NCBI GenBank assembly: GCA_012862575.1
Contig: BLSF01000039.1
Span: 342,842 to 406,841 of the forward strand
DNA length: 64,000 nucleotides
Direction: 5' to 3'
Origin: Parietichytrium sp. I65-24A
Taxonomy: Eukaryota > Sar > Bigyra > Thraustochytrida > Thraustochytriidae
How positions within the stretch are numbered: the first letter of the stretch is position 1; each line of letters starts with the position of its first letter. Below, in pieces: positions 40,897-52,581 of the stretch. The position numbers and the translations under genes are program-made. A model generated the notes under the pieces. It was given only the letters and a program-made list of their open reading frames with translations. It searched no databases and was not told where the DNA came from.

Positions 40897-42390
40897 TTAG
40901 CGGACCAAACGACGCATCATTTGCAGAGGCATTCGGATGTTTGCCATGCGAGACCCAGGCAGTCTAGGGCTGATTGCTGTGTGAAGAGCACGCGCTCCGA
41001 TGACTGTTTGATCAGTCAGGGTGCGAGCAGCTTCGGTTTCGCTGCGTGTGTAGGTTCTTCGGGCGCCAGAGTCGACTCCTTGAAGGTAGAAGGAGCCAGC
41101 TGCAAGCTTGTTGGGCGCGCCAGCCACTTCAAAGTTGTTCGCGCTGTGGAATTCTTCACGCTCTTTGAGAGCTGCTACAAATTCATCCACGCTAGCCTCG
41201 TGGCGCTCTTCCAAGCGCTGAAATAGGTTGCAAGTCTCGCGCTGTTCCTTCAAAGAGCCTTGCACGGTCAAGGAAAACATGGTCGCTGCGAGTCCTGAGC
41301 CATACGAAAACATGAGCAGCCGCTCGTTGCTGAAGTCCGTTTTATCAGATTGTGCAATTAAGCTCAATAATCCAAAGTACAGCGAACCAGTGTAGCTGTT
41401 GCCCAGATTGCGGCAGGCTTGGGTGTAAGGAAAGACGCGGCTGTCGTATTGCTCCTTGCTGGCCTTCACGCACACCTTGTCGATATCTCGATTCACGTAC
41501 GAGTCCTCCTCAGAGATGTCCTTAAATTGCTCAGCAATTGCTGCCAGGCTTTCGTCCGCAACACCACGCCTCAGGTCATTGTACAAAAGGCGGCCGAAAG
41601 ACTTTTGCACCAGCTTGCAGTAAGGTTGGTGGAACAGAAAACGCTGCGCCTTTCCGGTTGCATTGCCAAACACGTCAAATTTCTCCCCATACACCCTTTC
41701 AAACTTGTTGGCGTAAAGCTGGTAGCACTTGTCCACCGCGCGCAAGTAGCAGCTGTTGCTCAGCTGCCCGTCGACGCGTGGATATTCGCTGTGCAAATCT
41801 GGCTTGTAAAAGTCGTACACATCCTCAAAGTGCGATGCGCGGAGACGGTTCTCAAAGACGAGTGGCGCGTCTGGTCCGATCAGCATAGCCACAACGCCTG
41901 CCCCTCCGGTGGGCCTTGCTGGGCCAGCCTCGTAGACGGCAATGTCTCCCGTGATGACCACACCGTAGCGGCCATCCCAGGCGGAAGACTCCACCCAATC
42001 AATCGTATTGAAGAGAGCAGAAGTGCCTCCGTAGCAGGCATTCTTGTTGGTCACTCCAAGCACGTCAGAGTTTCCGCTCTCCTCGAAGAGTCTCATGAGG
42101 GTCGTCTTGGAGCTTTTGCTCTTGTCAGGGATCGTCTCTGTGCCGACTTCCAGGCGGCCGATATCATTGTAGCTCAGCCCGTACTTGTCCATCAGGTTGT
42201 GCAGGGCTGACATCATCATACTGTTGATGTCCTCGCCCGCGCCGGTGAACGCCATCTTGTCCTGGCCGAGCCCGACCCTGTACTTTCCCGCGCTCACGCC
42301 ATCCGCCTGCTCCAACGCCTCCTGGGACACAAACGTGCTCGGAAAGTAGCAGTCCGAAGCCACGATACCCACTCTCTTTGCGCCCGACAT
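40897..42390 (-). CDS. HMGCS1: hydroxymethylglutaryl-CoA synthase, 497 aa
   Basis: Condenses acetyl-CoA with acetoacetyl-CoA to HMG-CoA, the step before HMG-CoA reductase in the mevalonate (sterol/isoprenoid) pathway. Single exon, ATG at 42390. It starts directly with KRVGIVASDCYFPSTFVSQ and has no mitochondrial presequence, so it is probably cytosolic. The catalytic triad sites are visible: Glu in FTGAGEDINSM, the nucleophilic Cys ~119 in NACYGGTSALFN, and His in FLFHQPYCKLVQKSF. VGTETIPDKSKSSKT, GPARPTGGAGVVAMLIG and SYGSGLAATMFSL are also conserved. Length fits the family (about 460-520). An intact gene implies a functional mevalonate route in this organism. It is convergent with MRI1. Confidence 0.97.
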   Translation of the reverse strand: MSGAKRVGIVASDCYFPSTFVSQEALEQADGVSAGKYRVGLGQDKMAFTGAGEDINSMMMSALHNLMDKYGLSYNDIGRLEVGTETIPDKSKSSKTTLMRLFEESGNSDVLGVTNKNACYGGTSALFNTIDWVESSAWDGRYGVVITGDIAVYEAGPARPTGGAGVVAMLIGPDAPLVFENRLRASHFEDVYDFYKPDLHSEYPRVDGQLSNSCYLRAVDKCYQLYANKFERVYGEKFDVFGNATGKAQRFLFHQPYCKLVQKSFGRLLYNDLRRGVADESLAAIAEQFKDISEEDSYVNRDIDKVCVKASKEQYDSRVFPYTQACRNLGNSYTGSLYFGLLSLIAQSDKTDFSNERLLMFSYGSGLAATMFSLTVQGSLKEQRETCNLFQRLEERHEASVDEFVAALKEREEFHSANNFEVAGAPNKLAAGSFYLQGVDSGARRTYTRSETEAARTLTDQTVIGARALHTAISPRLPGSRMANIRMPLQMMRRLVR

Positions 42391-44678: not shown

Positions 44679-47600
44679 CTATTCGAAAGTGTACCGAAGA
44701 AAGTGCTCAATATGATTCGACGAAAGCATTTCGCGAATGTGTGGATGGATGGCATTTTCGTCAGCGCCCAGCACGGAGGAGAGCTGCTCTTTACATTGCT
44801 CTGACAGTGATTCGGGCATTTGCAACAAGGCCAAGAAAAGATCACGGTAAATTTCCGGATGAAACGTGACACCGCCAAACCAGACAGTGTTTCGTTGAAT
44901 CTCCCTGACCCTGTTGAGAGTCTCTTCATCCAGTCCAGTATCCTTCCTGTCACCTGCTTTTCCTGGTGATTGGCTCACATGCTGAACGACATATGATTCC
45001 AACAAAGGTTCTGCGTATACATTGTCCGGCTCGAACAAGAAGAGATCTTTTGCTCCGAGGCCAAGGTCACGAACCCCGGATTGTTCAATGTGGCGCAATG
45101 AATCTTGCAAACTTGACTGCCCCAAAACGGCCTCGCGGATCTTTGCCCACTGATTGGGCTTAAAGACGGCCTCCACGTGCTTGAAAGTTGCCACGAGAGC
45201 CAGCGGCTCGCTGACAGAATACTCGCGGCCTTGCAGCTCTGGAACTGATCTGTTTGCGATGACCACCGCTTCGTACCGCACACTATCCACCTCGTCCTGA
45301 AGAAGAGCCACGAGAGCTCCCCAGGTGTAGAATTTCGCGTCGTCTGTTGAAAGAGAGTGAGTTTGGTCCTCAGACGCGAGAAGCCGTGATTGCCCCAGTG
45401 CCAAGCACGCAACCATTCGTAGAGCAGAGGTTCTCCGTGGGTGGGAAGCTTTGTACACTCTCTCAGCCAAGGTCTCGGGCTCTCCACAGCCATGCCCACA
45501 AAGTGAGCCAAGGAGACCTAGTGCCGAGCACTGGATAGCCTCGCTAGTGGCTGAATCGTATATGCCGAGGACAGTATCGCTCACCCTGGCAAGGTCGAGG
45601 TCACCTTTCAAGGTGTCGAGTATCTCAGGCTGTGCAGAAGACGCTAAACGATTGAGAGCTTTGTGAATGAGCTCAAGGCGGCCTTTGAGCTCCGGCGCGT
45701 ATTCATCTGGCGAACTTAACGTAACATGCACCAACGCTTTTAAAGACTCAACGAGGCCTTGCCCATGCAGCAGCTCCTCGAAGTTTTGGTCCAGAGAACG
45801 TATTGCTGCGAGGCGTGCAATGCAATCTGGGCTTGTAAGAACCGAGAATGCGGTTTCAGGCACGAACAGGCAACTTATCGCGAGCGGCTTCTCGCGCACC
45901 TGAGTGTGCTGGCTCTTGTCCATGGCCACATGGGTGATGTACTGAAAGAGGTCTTCTTTCATTGGAATTGCCGCGAGCTGAGTTCGGCGTAGAGTTGCCC
46001 ATGCCTGCGCAACGGCCCAGACTGAATCGCTTGTGAGGGTGCATGGCAAACCAGCGACCGGAGAGTCGCAGAGTTTGTGTGCAGCAATAATGGCTGATTC
46101 TACTTTTCCATCTAAAATCAAAACAACCTTTTCCACAGGTCCTCCCGATTGCAAAACGGTCTCTCCTAGCTCCTCTTTGATGTCTGCAAACACCTTCCGA
46201 TGCTTGATAGCTCTGATCAGGTGCAAGAGGCATTGCAACGTCCCGTGTAGCACATTTTGTGGCACACGGCTCCCCGTGCTCTGCTCTGAAACTATGGCGT
46301 CAACGATTTGAGTAACAAGAGGCAAAATGTGATCATTTGGAACTATAGCGCCAAGCGCCCTCGCAGCCATTGCGCGACTCAAGCCTTCGTGGTTGACGCT
46401 GCAATTTAAAAGAAGCGGGACGAAAGGCCCCACGTCGGCGTTGCCTTCTGCCCATGATGCTGCCTCTGCATCTGTCTGCCCTATGCTCAGAAAGGCACGC
46501 GCACTTCCAAGAAGGTATTGAGGTTCGAGTCGCGACAGAAGCAGCAGCCACGGGTAGAGCCTCGGCTCCGAACGGTTTGGCTGCTTCGCAGCGGATGCTA
46601 AGCCCTCCAACACAACTTGCCTCACTCGGGCAAATCTTTGGAAGAAAAAGGACGCAGAAATACGCGCTCCCACCGAGTCTTCGTCTCCTTGATGGTTCCC
46701 GGTCATGACTCTACGTACAAGTTGAGCAAAAATCATCATGGAGGAGTTGCGAACTTGCCAATGTGCGGAACGGAAACCGTCCATGGCCAGAATAAATACG
46801 TCGTTCAAAATTTCCCCGTCTATATCGCCGTGTAAGGTTGCATCCAACACCATTTTGATAATATTTAAGGAATGCACCTTGGTTCCCACGCCAACCTCAT
46901 CTGACGCGGTTGCAAAGTACAAGAGCTTTTCTAGCATCAAGTTGAGCAACTCAGACTTGTAAAACCATGGCTCTGCCCTTGCGATTGCCAGAAAGGCTCC
47001 CGCAAACCCTCCAGATCGGCGCAAGATAAAGCCTTGTGAGCCTTTCTCGAGCTTTGAGAGCAGGCCAAGCAGCCACAAGCGAGGAAGTTCGGAAACATGA
47101 GTGACTTCGGTTGAGGAGCGCTCTTGCGATTTGGTCTTGCGCTTGACCCCCAAGAGACGGCCACAGACACCTTGGAGAGCAGTGATGGTAAAACCAATCG
47201 CCCCAGAGTGCTTTAATTGGCCAAGTGTCATCAAAAGCCAGTCCCCTATCTTCTTCGAGTTGGCAAAAGATAGAATATAATCATCTTCGCTGTTCGCAGA
47301 CTCTTGGAGGGTAGAGTGCGCGACAATAGCGTGCAGGAGCTCGCTTCCGTCGCGGATTAGCATCCAAGTGCTTGTGACGACTCGTGAAGCTACGGAGTGC
47401 GCCCTGTCCGCTTTGTTTGACGTGGCGTCTGCATCAGGGGTACCAAAAAGGCCGTGAATTGGACCGGCGGCAAAGAGAGACGATGCGCCACTATCCTCGC
47501 CGGATGAGGAGGAAGAATTTGTACTTGCGCCCATCACGGTACGGGCCATCTCCAACGCCTGGAAAACGATGTCAAGTAGAGCTTCCACCAACGGGCGCCA

Positions 47601-50600
47601 TTCAGTGGTAAAGTGGTCGGTGTCCTCCCAGCAGTACCGCATCGCGCGAAGAATACCATAAATGGAAGCATCAGGAGCTGCAAGCAGAGAGAACTTCGAG
47701 CCGTGCTCATGCAGTATGTTGTCTTCCCCTCCGTCGTCGTCATTGTCGTCCTCGTCCTCAGCTCCAGCTTCGTTTCCTTCTTCGCCGGTAGGCATTCGAG
47801 GTTCCTTCAGGGCTAATTGCAGTTCCCCTACGCTCTTGGACAGCACACCTACCAACTGCCACATAAAGTGTAACTTTGCAAGATTGCGAGGCATTTCGCA
47901 GCCCTTCGATTGAACTGCCACGGTGCGCGATTCTTCTTGAGAAAGTGGGCGGTTGGGAATGTCTTCCTGTCCAGGAAACAAAAACATGTTCGGCTCCATG
48001 CACCTCCGCTGGAGCCGAGCATCTGTGAGATAGTCAACCTGAATGCCAGCAGATCGGAGCTCCTCTGTTCCTGTGCACGTAACAAATTTGGAGGGTTCTT
48101 TCACTCCGACAACGACCCTCTTCACCTTTGCGGCTATGCAGCGCGAGGTGCAAGGTCGGTTCCCCGAAAGCCTCACGCTGCAGGGCTCCATCGTGGTGTA
48201 AATAGTGCAGCCTTGCGCCCCTCCTTCCGAAACGTCGTCCAGCGCAAGCTCGGTGGCCGGATCCTCCAAAACTGTGTCTCGGGTGGCCCTCCCAATCTTG
48301 ACAAACGCAGTCTCCTCTGCGTGAGTGTTTCCAGGGAGTTCGCGGCTAAATCCACACGCGATGTGGTCTTCATAGCCATCCACTCCTCTGGTTACGATAG
48401 AACCCACACAATACGCCTTCTCGGACCGCTCGCACTTTTCAGCCTCATCACATGCCAGGTGCATGATCGCCGTATCAACGGAGTTTCTTATCTGGTGCGC
48501 TACCCCTTGTGCAGACGAGGCCGAGAACGGCTCGACAACGTCCCTGAGCGGGGAGGTCCAAGATGGCGACTCGCTTTTCGGGACGTCGATCGCCCATCCT
48601 AATCCGCAAACGTACTTTTTGTAAAGCAGGCGGACCATCGTCGCTCCCGCATCGGCGTCTCTGAAGCGGGAGTTGGACATGAGCACAACCATCCAATGCA
48701 GCCAGGCTTGGACAGCTTCTCGAGTTTGTAGACCGGCAAGGGGTGCCGGAATGTAATCAAGGCACGAATACGTAAGATCATGGCTCCGCTCGTACGCGTT
48801 TGTCAGCATATTTATGAGTGTGCAAATTGAGTCTTTCGCCTTGGAACCAGGCTCATCCATGCCAGTCAACGGGAAGAGGAAAGAGGCATTGGCGCACACC
48901 TGTGCAACGACTGCATGGGAGGGTGCAGCGGAAGCACTTGATAACACAGCAAGCATTGCCTGCAAGAGCTCAAGCCCCATACCGCAGCGATCAAGAGGGG
49001 CCAATGGGTAGCAACACGAGATCATTTCCAACTGAAACCAATGTGTGAACTCCAAGGCAGCAAGCACTCTCTCGGGGTTTGTTTTTGCAAGTTTTTCACT
49101 GCCGCATGCAGTTGAAATCCATTCGAAAAGCTTTGTGACTGCCCTCGCCACACGATGGCGCAAGCTCGCATGCGGCCACTTGGTGGTTCGCTGGAAAAAG
49201 TACTTGCAAAGGTCTAGTTGTTTGCTTGATGGCAAATACAGCTTGCCCCTATCGAGAGCAGTCAGTAAATCAAGCGCTTTGATGCAAGTTGCGGCGTCGT
49301 TGGCAACCACAGCTGAGCGAAGGTCCTCGGCTGGAATCTGCACAACTGAATCGCCGGTTTGAATATCAGCATCCAATTCGCCTTGTTCCACGTAAGACAA
49401 TGGGAAGCCAGCATCCTTGAAGCTTGTCCATATCGTCAATTTCTCCAGCAATCCAGCTCTAGTGCCAAATGCGTCTAAAAACGCAGTGCCAGTCAATCCA
49501 GGAATACTTTTGACCAATGCGGGAAGGAGTTTTGTGGAGATTGCTTCCATTACAAACTCGCTCGCGTCTCCAGTCATCGCCTGGACAAGAGGATGCAACC
49601 ACATTTCTCTTGGCCGCCCAAGGGCTTCCAAGTCTTGTGCCGCCTGCACGAAAACAGATGTAGCAATGCGCCCGACATGAGCGTTCTCAGCAAAGCTGTT
49701 GACAAGTCCCTGAATGACCCTTCGATCCAACGCTAACAAGCTCTCGATGCCATCCCTCTTGATCATATTCGCAAGAATAGGAAGAGCAGCCTTTAAGTTC
49801 GTTCGCATTCTCTTCGGATCATTCTCCACCACTTCCCTCATCAGGCGTCGGGTGATGTCCACATGCAGCGCTTGCAAAGCAGCTCTGTGTGTCGTGACCT
49901 CAGAAGCTCGAGTTTCCAAGTCGCCGCCGTCCTCTAGATACTCTAGTCTAACAAAGTCGAGTACATCCAAAGCATTCTGCAGCAAAGGCTCCAAGTGGTA
50001 TCTAGCTTTTCTCTTGCCGTGACTCCAATTTGCCAAGACATATTCGATCAACTCTTTGCAAATGGAGCATGCTGAGGCCACCCAATAGTCCCAAACAAGC
50101 GACTGCACTTTAGAATCTCGAAATCCAGCCTGAATTTGTCTACACCACGTGCTTAACCCCTCCATGCATGCCGTTTGCACGCTCTCGTCAAATACAAAGT
50201 CGTCGGAGAGTTTTCGAAAGGTTTCAACAAACAAACTTCCAACAAAGTACTCGCCACCGTCGACGGTGTCGCTTTTAAAGAGAACTTGGAGAGGCATGGC
50301 CCCTATTGATTGGTGTAAAAGGGTGGAATGCACCTGCGCTGTCATCGTCTGCAGGGTAAAAGGAGCAAAGAACCCAACTCCACTCACTTTGGTGTCCGGA
50401 AACCAGTGCAATATCGACCTACGTAGAGCCCCTATCGTCTCTTGCTCTTCATCCCGATGGCATGCGAGAATATTCATTCTTGTCAGCGCCACAGCAGCAT
50501 GGTTTCTAAATGGTTTGTGTGTTTGCGAATCCGATATTTCTGGTGTGCAGAGAGCCGGGAGAAAAATTCTGTCGCGAAGGCCTTCCAAATCATCGTACAA

Positions 50601-51434
50601 AGAGGGAAAACGAGTACCCGCTTCTTGAGCGGCCTGCAGCTGATCCAGATAGGAAAGAAGGAAAAACAGAATCCCATCCAATCGTTCAGCATTATCGCCT
50701 TGGGACGCAGCTGTAGAAGGCACGTCTTCCTCCACACTTGGGCCCAATGCCCGCTTAGTCAGGGCCATGAGAATTCTGCTGGTGACTGGTAAAGCTTGTG
50801 AAGGAGGTAGTGCCTGCATCACATTTTGGCGGGTGCACTGACAGCTCATAAGATGGCGGAGAGAGGAGCCAAGGTGCTCCAAGGCTAACTCTGTCTCCTG
50901 CGAGGCATCGAGCTCAAGGAAGACATCCTCGTCGACCCATTCGAGCAGAGTATCCATCTCCTCAACAAACTGTTCCGCCCACTCATCAGACTTAAAAATT
51001 GCAGCATTAAACTCTTCACAAACCAGCAGTAAGGCAGCGGCGAGGCGACGGAGCTTCTTTTCACAAGGGGAAAACATTATCGCCAAAGCAAATTTTGCGG
51101 TCCGCAGGAATGCAGGGCAAACGAGTTCATCGACTTGTACCGCACGTGATTCGCACCAGCAATCCGCTCCGCATCGGATCTGCCCCTTTTTCATGCCATC
51201 CTTGAGCGACCCGATTGCTCTTGCCTGAGCATTTACATCCCCATGATTTTTCAAGAACGCCAAGATCGCACTTCCAACAGACTCAATAGGCTCGCTCAGC
51301 TCCAAGATTCGCTGCCTCCTGTTTGCCAAGTATGACGCCAGCCTGTCGCTGGACACTGCTCGCGACCCGTCAAAGGCACTCAAAACGAGAACTTTCGCAG
51401 CTCTGCCATTTCCAGCAGCGCTTTTCTTGCCCAT
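44679..51434 (-). CDS. THADA: THADA/Trm732-like protein with an embedded RIB2-type deaminase domain, 2251 aa
   Basis: A single uninterrupted frame of 6756 nt. I start at the ATG at 51434 (MGKKSAAGNG); the upstream extension begins with GTG. Residues 1-~985 are alpha-helical, HEAT-like. At ~990-1165 is a zinc-dependent deaminase: EKCERSEKAYCVGSIV, GFSRELPGNTHAEETAF (zinc ligand His and catalytic Glu), then TTMEPCSVRLSGNRPC (two zinc Cys) and VKEPSKFV. This is the form of the deaminase of fungal RIB2, which acts on the pyrimidine intermediate of riboflavin synthesis. From ~1190 on are THADA/Trm732 (DUF2428) signatures: LRRSGGFAGAFLAIARAEP (~1475), VHSLNIIKMVLDAT, WQVRNSSMMIFAQLVRRV (~1563) and SRAMAARALGAIVPNDHI. 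Trm732 is the partner of the Trm7 methyltransferase for 2'-O-methylation at tRNA position 32. All deaminase active-site residues are intact. The fusion is unusual; see findings. Confidence 0.92.
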   Translation of the reverse strand: MGKKSAAGNGRAAKVLVLSAFDGSRAVSSDRLASYLANRRQRILELSEPIESVGSAILAFLKNHGDVNAQARAIGSLKDGMKKGQIRCGADCWCESRAVQVDELVCPAFLRTAKFALAIMFSPCEKKLRRLAAALLLVCEEFNAAIFKSDEWAEQFVEEMDTLLEWVDEDVFLELDASQETELALEHLGSSLRHLMSCQCTRQNVMQALPPSQALPVTSRILMALTKRALGPSVEEDVPSTAASQGDNAERLDGILFFLLSYLDQLQAAQEAGTRFPSLYDDLEGLRDRIFLPALCTPEISDSQTHKPFRNHAAVALTRMNILACHRDEEQETIGALRRSILHWFPDTKVSGVGFFAPFTLQTMTAQVHSTLLHQSIGAMPLQVLFKSDTVDGGEYFVGSLFVETFRKLSDDFVFDESVQTACMEGLSTWCRQIQAGFRDSKVQSLVWDYWVASACSICKELIEYVLANWSHGKRKARYHLEPLLQNALDVLDFVRLEYLEDGGDLETRASEVTTHRAALQALHVDITRRLMREVVENDPKRMRTNLKAALPILANMIKRDGIESLLALDRRVIQGLVNSFAENAHVGRIATSVFVQAAQDLEALGRPREMWLHPLVQAMTGDASEFVMEAISTKLLPALVKSIPGLTGTAFLDAFGTRAGLLEKLTIWTSFKDAGFPLSYVEQGELDADIQTGDSVVQIPAEDLRSAVVANDAATCIKALDLLTALDRGKLYLPSSKQLDLCKYFFQRTTKWPHASLRHRVARAVTKLFEWISTACGSEKLAKTNPERVLAALEFTHWFQLEMISCCYPLAPLDRCGMGLELLQAMLAVLSSASAAPSHAVVAQVCANASFLFPLTGMDEPGSKAKDSICTLINMLTNAYERSHDLTYSCLDYIPAPLAGLQTREAVQAWLHWMVVLMSNSRFRDADAGATMVRLLYKKYVCGLGWAIDVPKSESPSWTSPLRDVVEPFSASSAQGVAHQIRNSVDTAIMHLACDEAEKCERSEKAYCVGSIVTRGVDGYEDHIACGFSRELPGNTHAEETAFVKIGRATRDTVLEDPATELALDDVSEGGAQGCTIYTTMEPCSVRLSGNRPCTSRCIAAKVKRVVVGVKEPSKFVTCTGTEELRSAGIQVDYLTDARLQRRCMEPNMFLFPGQEDIPNRPLSQEESRTVAVQSKGCEMPRNLAKLHFMWQLVGVLSKSVGELQLALKEPRMPTGEEGNEAGAEDEDDNDDDGGEDNILHEHGSKFSLLAAPDASIYGILRAMRYCWEDTDHFTTEWRPLVEALLDIVFQALEMARTVMGASTNSSSSSGEDSGASSLFAAGPIHGLFGTPDADATSNKADRAHSVASRVVTSTWMLIRDGSELLHAIVAHSTLQESANSEDDYILSFANSKKIGDWLLMTLGQLKHSGAIGFTITALQGVCGRLLGVKRKTKSQERSSTEVTHVSELPRLWLLGLLSKLEKGSQGFILRRSGGFAGAFLAIARAEPWFYKSELLNLMLEKLLYFATASDEVGVGTKVHSLNIIKMVLDATLHGDIDGEILNDVFILAMDGFRSAHWQVRNSSMMIFAQLVRRVMTGNHQGDEDSVGARISASFFFQRFARVRQVVLEGLASAAKQPNRSEPRLYPWLLLLSRLEPQYLLGSARAFLSIGQTDAEAASWAEGNADVGPFVPLLLNCSVNHEGLSRAMAARALGAIVPNDHILPLVTQIVDAIVSEQSTGSRVPQNVLHGTLQCLLHLIRAIKHRKVFADIKEELGETVLQSGGPVEKVVLILDGKVESAIIAAHKLCDSPVAGLPCTLTSDSVWAVAQAWATLRRTQLAAIPMKEDLFQYITHVAMDKSQHTQVREKPLAISCLFVPETAFSVLTSPDCIARLAAIRSLDQNFEELLHGQGLVESLKALVHVTLSSPDEYAPELKGRLELIHKALNRLASSAQPEILDTLKGDLDLARVSDTVLGIYDSATSEAIQCSALGLLGSLCGHGCGEPETLAERVYKASHPRRTSALRMVACLALGQSRLLASEDQTHSLSTDDAKFYTWGALVALLQDEVDSVRYEAVVIANRSVPELQGREYSVSEPLALVATFKHVEAVFKPNQWAKIREAVLGQSSLQDSLRHIEQSGVRDLGLGAKDLFLFEPDNVYAEPLLESYVVQHVSQSPGKAGDRKDTGLDEETLNRVREIQRNTVWFGGVTFHPEIYRDLFLALLQMPESLSEQCKEQLSSVLGADENAIHPHIREMLSSNHIEHFLRYTFE

Positions 51435-52581
51435 CTTGAGTCCTAGCTCACACAACTTCAATACCACGCACACCAGCAGTCAGGTTTGTGCCGACAGACC
51501 CCACTTCCCGACCCACTGCACAGCAGAAGAGCAGAATCCCAACTTTCGAAAACTCCAAACTTTTCCGATCCTAAGTTTCCGACAGTTCCGCTATTTGAGC
51601 TCAAGTTGCCACTCACCTGGCCAACGCCCGCGCTTTCTCCCGTCTCGCTAAGAGTTCGTGTTTGCACAGAACCCAACCGCTAAAGCCGACTGCCCAGTAT
51701 GGTCAGATGCCGCGGTGTATTGTTTGGGATCAGATCTCTCGAAACCTCCCGTGTTACTTTTCACAAAGTCTCTTTCCACTCTTTCCTCTCACAGCAAGCA
51801 GACCACGAACCAATCGCTCCACAGATGCTTAGTAGCAACTACTAACCAGTAGAGTACAATTCTTTGAACGCGAACAAGGTACTAATCTCTATGAGTTTGA
51901 TTATTGATTGTAGTAATATGACGCTGGTTATGGAGAATGGTAGCTCGCTTCCGAAAGTGATCCGTTGACGGAGGATTTGACACCAAGTCAAAATAGCAGA
52001 ATTCAGAATTCAGAAGTGCAGGTTTTAACACTGACAAAGTTTAAACTATTTTGGAAAGTGGAGAAATTCGGAGCACGTCTGGTTCATCGTACCCGTATCG
52101 CTGCAAGGGATGACTTGGGAATCCACACAAGAGCAAGAGAGAAGCTCAACACTCAGAGTGAGGGCCGTATAGGTCTCGTGAACAGCTCAGTCATTCTTTA
52201 AAAAATAGAACATCATTCTTTAAAAAATAGAACACTGGAGTCCAGAATTCAAAGTCAAAACAAATGGTTCACATGTCAGGATCAATGCCGGCAAAGAAAA
52301 ACTCTATACTTGTACTAGCGCAGAGACTTGAACCGAGCCCAGTCCGCCTTACTAAGTAGAAGCAGCACCTGCACACACAATCCAAGCTCATCCACTCGCA
52401 CACTCGCAAGTGACAACGCGGGCAAGGCTTGATTGCGCATTGCAACCTGAGAGCAAAGTTGATCCTTATCCAATTGCTCTGGCGCAGGCAAGTCTTGCCT
52501 TCTCTGAGACACGCACACACACTGGCGAAGTGAATACCGAAAGGTGATAGCGAAAGCGCGAAGCGTCAGGAAAGTGCGACA
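51435..52581. other. intergenic between divergent genes
   Basis: About 1.1 kb that must hold the promoters of the THADA-like gene (minus) and the coiled-coil gene (plus). Contains a 22-bp tandem duplication at ~52192-52233. No gene seen. Confidence 0.5.
52192..52233. repeat. 22-bp direct tandem duplication
   Basis: cattctttaaaaaatagaac occurs twice, separated by at. Confidence 0.9.

Follow-up and report, generated by a model that had tools for sequence, protein, structure and literature searches.

What does a Rib2-type deaminase do inside a THADA/Trm732 protein? The question is raised by a gene on the minus strand of the stretch of DNA studied here (the window), 64,000 nucleotides of contig BLSF01000039.1 from the thraustochytrid Parietichytrium sp. 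I65-24A. An earlier note on this DNA had considered two answers: that the deaminase edits a tRNA base (C to U) near position 32, or that it only serves riboflavin synthesis and rides on the protein. The second answer has held up better, since the substrate contacts of a known Rib2 are kept, other enzymes of the riboflavin pathway are matched in the genome, and another Rib2 or RibD was not found there by profile or protein-query searches. The inserted domain is very probably the riboflavin enzyme, in a protein whose halves would work independently and whose THADA part, judged by its sequence, would still guide methylation of tRNA position 32 (Nm32).

A deaminase inserted into THADA/Trm732

The open frame on the minus strand is uninterrupted over 44679–51473 and comprises 2264 amino acids when counted from the GTG at 51473. 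The first ATG is residue 14 of this frame, which gives a gene of 2251 codons plus stop at 44679–51434; residue numbers of the window protein count from the GTG, not from the ATG. All motifs that the earlier note had quoted from this single frame are present in the translation. The features of the gene are the following (AoRib2 denotes Rib2 of A. oryzae).

44679..51434, minus strand: whole gene, THADA/Trm732 with a Rib2-type deaminase inside, 2251 amino acids from the first ATG (open frame and Pfam)
48594..51434, minus strand: N-terminal THADA part, residues 14–960 (THADA-type profile match to chain positions 103–876 of human THADA, 8y2o_A)
47874..48575, minus strand: insert of 234 residues (967–1200), linkers and deaminase (alignment with homologues)
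47979..48476, minus strand: Rib2-type deaminase domain, residues 1000–1165 (Pfam and best solved relatives)
48312..48326, minus strand: THAEE motif with zinc ligand His1051 and catalytic Glu1053 (alignment)
48150..48191, minus strand: MEPCSVRLSGNRPC motif with zinc ligands Cys1098 and Cys1108, and with Arg1101, Leu1102 and Ser1103 (mapping on AoRib2)
48096..48098, minus strand: Glu1126, equivalent to AoRib2 Glu136, a contact to ribityl O2′ (alignment; PMC8256712, excerpt)
46755..47591, minus strand: DUF2428 core of THADA/Trm732, residues 1295–1573 (Pfam; alignment with human THADA)
46221..46751, minus strand: Trm732 C-terminal repeat domain, residues 1575–1751 (Pfam; motif 3 seen as QNVLHGTL)

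The Pfam matches to both partners lie above their cut-offs: DUF2428 (PF10350) at residues 1295–1573 with 113 bits (cut-off 27), TPR_Trm732_C at 1575–1751 with 80 bits (cut-off 27), and the deaminase families PF18785 at 1037–1149 with 87 bits (cut-off 26.5) and PF00383 at 1000–1123 with 42 bits (cut-off 25). GC content at third codon positions is 0.60 in the insert and 0.52–0.56 in the rest of the frame, so that base composition gives no sharp break at the insert.

Homologues were sought with residues 960–1760 as query; the 8000 candidates sharing most words with it were scored, and 15 proteins were returned. Other proteins with both PF10350 and PF00383, for which the earlier note had suggested a search, make up 9 of the 15, whereas 2 carry THADA alone and the remaining 4 are CFAP74/ASH-type proteins that align via the deaminase. 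Mucochytrium quahogii and Hondaea fermentalgiana, both Thraustochytrida (Labyrinthulomycetes), are the named sources of fused relatives, and database names of the fused proteins include “CMP/dCMP-type deaminase domain-containing protein” and “Thyroid adenoma-associated protein.” The insert lies at an identical position in all nine, between stretches that align with YKKYVxxLGW on its N-terminal side and with FMWQLV on its C-terminal side, and its columns hold 164–285 residues in the 10 fused proteins vs. 18–72 in five deaminase-free homologues outside the group. The fusion is thus real, far beyond what chance would give, and conserved at one site.

Because the same joint occurs in nine fused relatives and the frame is open throughout, an artefact in which two genes were joined by an assembly error or an unrecognized intron has a negligible probability. 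An assembly error at ~47900–48500, a possibility raised in the earlier note, is excluded by the independent fused sequences. Nor are the close relatives all THADA-only, since the fusion occurs in both of the named ones; the genome of the window does contain another THADA gene that lacks the deaminase (described below).

Identity between the window protein and its nine fused relatives is 45–74% in the deaminase, 15–31% in the N-terminal THADA part, 25–43% in the DUF2428/Trm732_C part, and 14–30% in the remaining C terminus; the N-terminal part (residues 14–960) is 13–38% identical to the 15 other aligned proteins. The deaminase is the most constrained part of the fused protein, which matches the expectation for an irreplaceable catalytic domain.

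The best solved relative of the long part is human THADA (8y2o), which shares DUF2428, the Trm732 C-terminal domain, and motifs 1–3 with the window protein. A profile built from 11 THADA-type sequences, both fused and deaminase-free, matches chain positions 103–876 and 919–1890 of human THADA. Unlike the window protein, human THADA has no deaminase; the insert sits where the human chain has an unmatched stretch, positions 877–918 (about residues 849–890). The deaminase lies directly ahead of DUF2428, in a segment that is flanked by two conserved stretches and may be a surface loop.

The three motifs of human THADA span Leu1100–Gly1107, Ala1157–Pro1165, and Asn1401–Leu1408 (PMC12145424, excerpt). 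They start at chain positions 1128, 1185, and 1429, a constant offset of 28, while Arg1105 and His1106, as given in that excerpt, would fit an offset of 27. In the window protein, motifs 1 and 2 are seen within DUF2428 as QLKHSG and LRRSGGF, and motif 3, the FTSJ1-binding one, as QNVLHGTL; they are recognizable but not identical to the human motifs, motif 1 having Lys for Arg before the His. Matches to the FtsJ family are present in the genome, and the THADA part would by its sequence be the partner of a Trm7/FTSJ1 methyltransferase for tRNA position 32.

The substrate site and the riboflavin pathway

The RIB2 type assigned to the deaminase in the earlier note is borne out: the best solved relatives of the insert are A. 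oryzae Rib2 (7drz/7dry, E 2–3e-13) and then RibD proteins. The residues of A. oryzae Rib2 that hold the zinc ion and the riboflavin intermediate DARIPP are known, and its ribitol/phosphate recognition region differs from that of bacterial RibG (PMC8256712, excerpt). We mapped 13 of its positions (26, 53, 59, 61, 62, 63, 100, 102, 105, 106, 107, 112, and 136) onto the fused proteins. The 12 that contact zinc, DARIPP, or water (all except 26) are invariant in all 10 fused proteins; 11 of them are identical to A. oryzae, and position 53 is Ser for Thr. At position 26, a backbone contact, the fused proteins have Tyr for Phe. Arg105, Leu106, Ser107, and Glu136 of the ribitol/phosphate region are present in 10/10, as is Asn59; in the window protein the first three correspond to Arg1101, Leu1102, and Ser1103 (phosphate and ribityl contacts according to the contact list in the excerpt of PMC8256712). 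The zinc-binding HAE and PC...C motifs with the catalytic Glu are likewise complete (H, A, E, C, and C in 10/10), so that H1051, E1053, C1098, and C1108 of the window protein are intact, as had been claimed.

Compared with A. oryzae Rib2 (Protein Data Bank entries 7dry, 7drz, 7ds0, and 7ds1), the window deaminase thus shares the zinc site and the substrate contacts apart from Ser for Thr53 and Tyr for Phe26, but the mould enzyme is free, whereas the window domain is embedded in THADA and flanked by linkers. Standalone relatives (the best 120 of 505 matches, in proteins of ~103–327 amino acids) are, where named, fungal, some of them called “DRAP deaminase,” or oomycete proteins. In 119 of them (P0062 was left out of the alignment), the mapped positions are constant except 26 (Tyr in 94, Phe in 25) and 106 (Leu in 92, another residue in 27).

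The deaminase fails the full-length test for bacterial RibD/RibG, since TIGR00326 gives 49.5 bits (cut-off 156), covers model positions 1–120 of 343 only, and the RibD_C match of the genome lies on another contig. Kinship with AID/APOBEC, hinted at by the Pfam name “Inv-AAD,” was set aside, because the solved relatives belong to Rib2 and RibD and the standalone ones, where named, come from fungi and oomycetes. One standalone relative, from Phytophthora infestans, is itself named “Invertebrate-AID/APOBEC-deaminase.”

The genome was searched exon by exon over the 42.5-Mb, 172-contig assembly. RibD_C matches once, in a frame of its own on a different contig, and the best four solved relatives of this gene are annotated as 2,5-diamino-6-ribosylamino-4(3H)-pyrimidinone 5′-phosphate reductase, that is, Rib7-type, the reductase that accompanies fungal Rib2 as well. 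Family matches were also obtained for GTP cyclohydrolase II (two, one strong), DHBP synthase, lumazine synthase, and riboflavin synthase. PF18785 has one match, at the window locus (one candidate place scored). A second Rib2 was sought with the window's own deaminase stretch, which returned only itself (one candidate place scored), and with an Aphanomyces Rib2 as query at E up to 10, which gave two pieces, both at the window locus (one candidate scored). PF00383 has 10 matches in 8 genes, including the window gene; the seven others contain neither a Rib2 nor a full RibD, the best TIGR00326 score being 33 bits vs. a cut-off of 156, and in the four of the seven that were aligned, Arg105-Leu106-Ser107 is unmatched. 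Because the other enzymes were matched and another Rib2 or RibD was not found, the THADA deaminase fills the one gap among the riboflavin steps tested (dephosphorylation lying outside the test). The other seven genes are listed here.

Contig C99: frame of 181 amino acids, TadA/guanine-deaminase-like (PF00383 match)
Contig C9: two-domain frame (PF00383 match)
Contig C31: cytidine deaminase (PF00383 match)
C16:72521-72739 (L036): degenerate cytidine-deaminase-like domain in a very large frame, zinc motifs seemingly lost (family match; motifs judged by eye)
C34:344144-344575 (L009): Tad3-like frame with Ala for the catalytic Glu, HAA for HAE (PF00383 match)
Contig C29: Tad2-like gene whose two pieces are separated by an in-frame stop, which presumably reflects an intron (PF00383 match)
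C8:733597-733926 (L008): frame of 674 amino acids, unclassified deaminase with HAE and EPCDAC (PF00383 match)

The Tad2, Tad3, and guanine-deaminase labels are partly provisional, and the HAA of the C34 frame resembles that of the partner of eukaryotic Tad2, which is inactive. The frame on C8 continues after the deaminase with a long segment that looks Nudix-like to the eye but has no Pfam match. The stronger match to GTP cyclohydrolase II, the first enzyme of riboflavin synthesis, lies at C6:678942-679430 and continues upstream in the same frame (L014, 499 amino acids) into an N-terminal LOV/PAS domain. Its best match among solved structures is a putative blue light receptor, 1n9l (E 4.5e-21), and the Cys of CxFLQG is kept; LOV domains bind flavin mononucleotide, which is made from riboflavin. 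In the window, the neighbor of the fusion gene is a frame of 497 amino acids at 40897–42390 (minus strand), which we presume to be like hydroxymethylglutaryl-CoA synthase.

A paralogue without deaminase and the origin of the fusion

The second THADA gene of the genome, on contig C47 (L012:508-7230), encodes up to 2240 amino acids with DUF2428 and Trm732_C and has no deaminase match. Between the flanks that hold 234 residues in the window protein, it has 34 residues without deaminase motifs. A tree built on the THADA columns, leaving out the insert, makes this gene the sister of the window gene (100/100), inside the fused clade, and a mixture-model tree agrees on this placement (Shimodaira–Hasegawa-like approximate likelihood ratio test 99). 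The idea that it represents an ancestral, never-fused state was rejected: a tree constrained to unite the 10 fused sequences to its exclusion is worse by 211 log-likelihood units (approximately unbiased test, p 8e-6; model LG+G4 with no mixture, warnings about long branches, and a hypothesis set after the first tree was known). Probably, then, the fused gene was duplicated and one copy lost its deaminase.

The end branch of the fused copy is 0.45 vs. 0.79 for the paralogue, and in motif 1 the fused copy has Lys-His where the paralogue has Gln-His (by eye). The shorter branch and the basic residue suggest that the fused copy continues to function as a THADA. A search with the paralogue as query returned 3 distant proteins only and missed the known fused relatives, so that it was insensitive.

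In the THADA tree, five deaminase-free outgroups separate from the paralogue and all the fused sequences (97/99). Deaminase-only trees set three fused proteins (P0007–P0009) apart from the rest, although a single clade of all 10 is not rejected (p 0.30). A single fusion event shared by these three and the thraustochytrids is favored by the THADA tree and the identical insertion site, the deaminase tree not being decisive. In a quick deaminase tree, the standalone proteins that come closest to the thraustochytrid-type fused group are P0016, P0017, P0018, and P0020 (169–207 amino acids; joint support 89), a joint that was not resolved in a smaller, more careful tree; fungal and oomycete standalone proteins lie further out. 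Since oomycetes are stramenopiles, the fusion likely started from a free Rib2.

Readings of the fusion

In the reading that we consider very probable, a whole Rib2 deaminase has been inserted into a labyrinthulomycete THADA/Trm732 just before DUF2428. Rib7 would first reduce the product of GTP cyclohydrolase II, in the fungal order, and the inserted domain would then deaminate DARIPP to ARIPP, the third step of riboflavin synthesis. THADA would still guide Nm32, the two halves would work independently, and the fusion would give them at most co-expression or co-localization. Some points weigh against this reading. The negative result for another Rib2 or RibD comes from an assembly of unestablished completeness with few candidates scored per search, Rib2-type contacts may not strictly bar a second substrate, and the fact that the fusion has lasted while THADA sequences diverged widely might point to a functional reason beyond this reading.

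An editing role, in which THADA would present the anticodon loop to the deaminase for a C-to-U change at or near position 32, can draw on the structure of human THADA, which holds tRNA with C32 near the methyltransferase center of FTSJ1 (PMC12145424, excerpt). It also has a bacterial precedent in TrcP of Vibrio cholerae, in which a deaminase for C32 is likewise joined to a modifier of tRNA position 32; the TrcP deaminase, however, acts on tRNA, as the window domain gives no evidence of doing, and according to its authors it has no BLAST link to known deaminases and possibly evolved independently of them (PMC9553926, excerpt). The contacts for the riboflavin intermediate are kept in the window domain, and a new substrate for the only Rib2 found would break the pathway. 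Nor is the fused domain enriched in basic residues: its net charge is negative in 9 of the 10 fused proteins (window −6; P0006 +2), and the mean of −3.7 vs. −3.1 in the 119 standalone proteins indicates that it is no more basic than standalone Rib2. The C47 paralogue, moreover, dispensed with the deaminase, through loss as the tree has it. The tRNA-editing role proposed at the outset has thus found no support, and we regard it as very improbable.

Other readings tie the two halves together in other ways. Yeast Rib2 joins the same deaminase family to a tRNA-modification protein, as in the window, but the yeast partner is an N-terminal RluA-type pseudouridine synthase, which acts at position 32 of cytoplasmic tRNA, whereas the window partner is THADA and the deaminase is internal. 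PseudoU_synth_2 has seven matches in the genome, none of them on the window's contig. A true coupling, in which the fusion would tie flavin supply to Nm32 methylation (through binding of the intermediate that alters THADA, or through co-localized synthesis) with interdependent activities, is supported by this yeast parallel, the two-domain make-up of which is confirmed in the excerpt of PMC8256712, and by the one-site fusion having outlasted a divergence of THADA to 14–43% identity. Against it stand the mould Rib2, a bare deaminase (PMC8256712, excerpt), and the named oomycete relatives of 142–166 amino acids (again among the best 120 of 505 matches in the size range searched), as well as the paralogue, which keeps a 2240-codon open frame without the deaminase. 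The CFAP74/ASH-like proteins P0011 (Naematelia), P0014 and P0015 (Kwoniella), and P0012 resemble the window protein in carrying a Rib2-type deaminase on a very large protein of 1800–2100 amino acids, and keep the side-chain contacts except for Thr at position 106, but their partner is unrelated to THADA and their deaminase is C-terminal (checked in P0011, residues 1691–1812, and P0012); a fusion made by the gene model is possible. Because of this partner, the free mould Rib2, and the seemingly free oomycete proteins among those listed, fusion to a tRNA factor is not a rule for the Rib2 family. We consider true coupling unlikely. 

Somewhat less likely still is a division of labor, in which, after the duplication, the C47 copy would have become the guide for Nm32, leaving the THADA half of the fused protein as no more than a scaffold for Rib2. 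The presence of two sister THADA genes in one genome speaks for it, but the fused copy is the slower one and has kept the Lys-His of motif 1, and the gene found in the two named relatives is the fused one. The suggestion that two fusions with position-32 modifiers may not be coincidence is weakened by the CFAP74/ASH-like partner in Naematelia and Kwoniella, although two tRNA-modification partners for Rib2 are a striking coincidence still. A functional switch, in which the state of flavin precursors would set the modification of tRNA position 32 or tRNA occupancy would set riboflavin synthesis, with the yeast fusion as an independent invention of the same link, appears improbable, more so than the division of labor; a regulatory link between flavin and tRNA is possible.

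In the openly licensed PubMed Central literature, judged by titles and the openings of abstracts among the papers listed (subscription papers and preprints lying outside this scope), a THADA–Rib2 deaminase fusion is undescribed. The same literature gave nothing on labyrinthulomycete THADA or on thraustochytrid riboflavin biosynthesis, and where DUF2428 and a deaminase occur together there, the deaminase is only an assay reagent. A 2026 review of Trm7/FTSJ1 (PMC13299246) contains none of the words deaminase, Rib2, fusion, and riboflavin.

The finding points to a riboflavin deaminase that, in these marine protists, is located inside an unexpected protein, and annotation in search of a free-standing RIB2 could therefore show the pathway as incomplete. 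Yeast being the first, this would be a second instance in which one and the same metabolic deaminase is carried by a tRNA-modification protein. The genome also offers a natural comparison between a THADA with the domain and a THADA that probably lost it.

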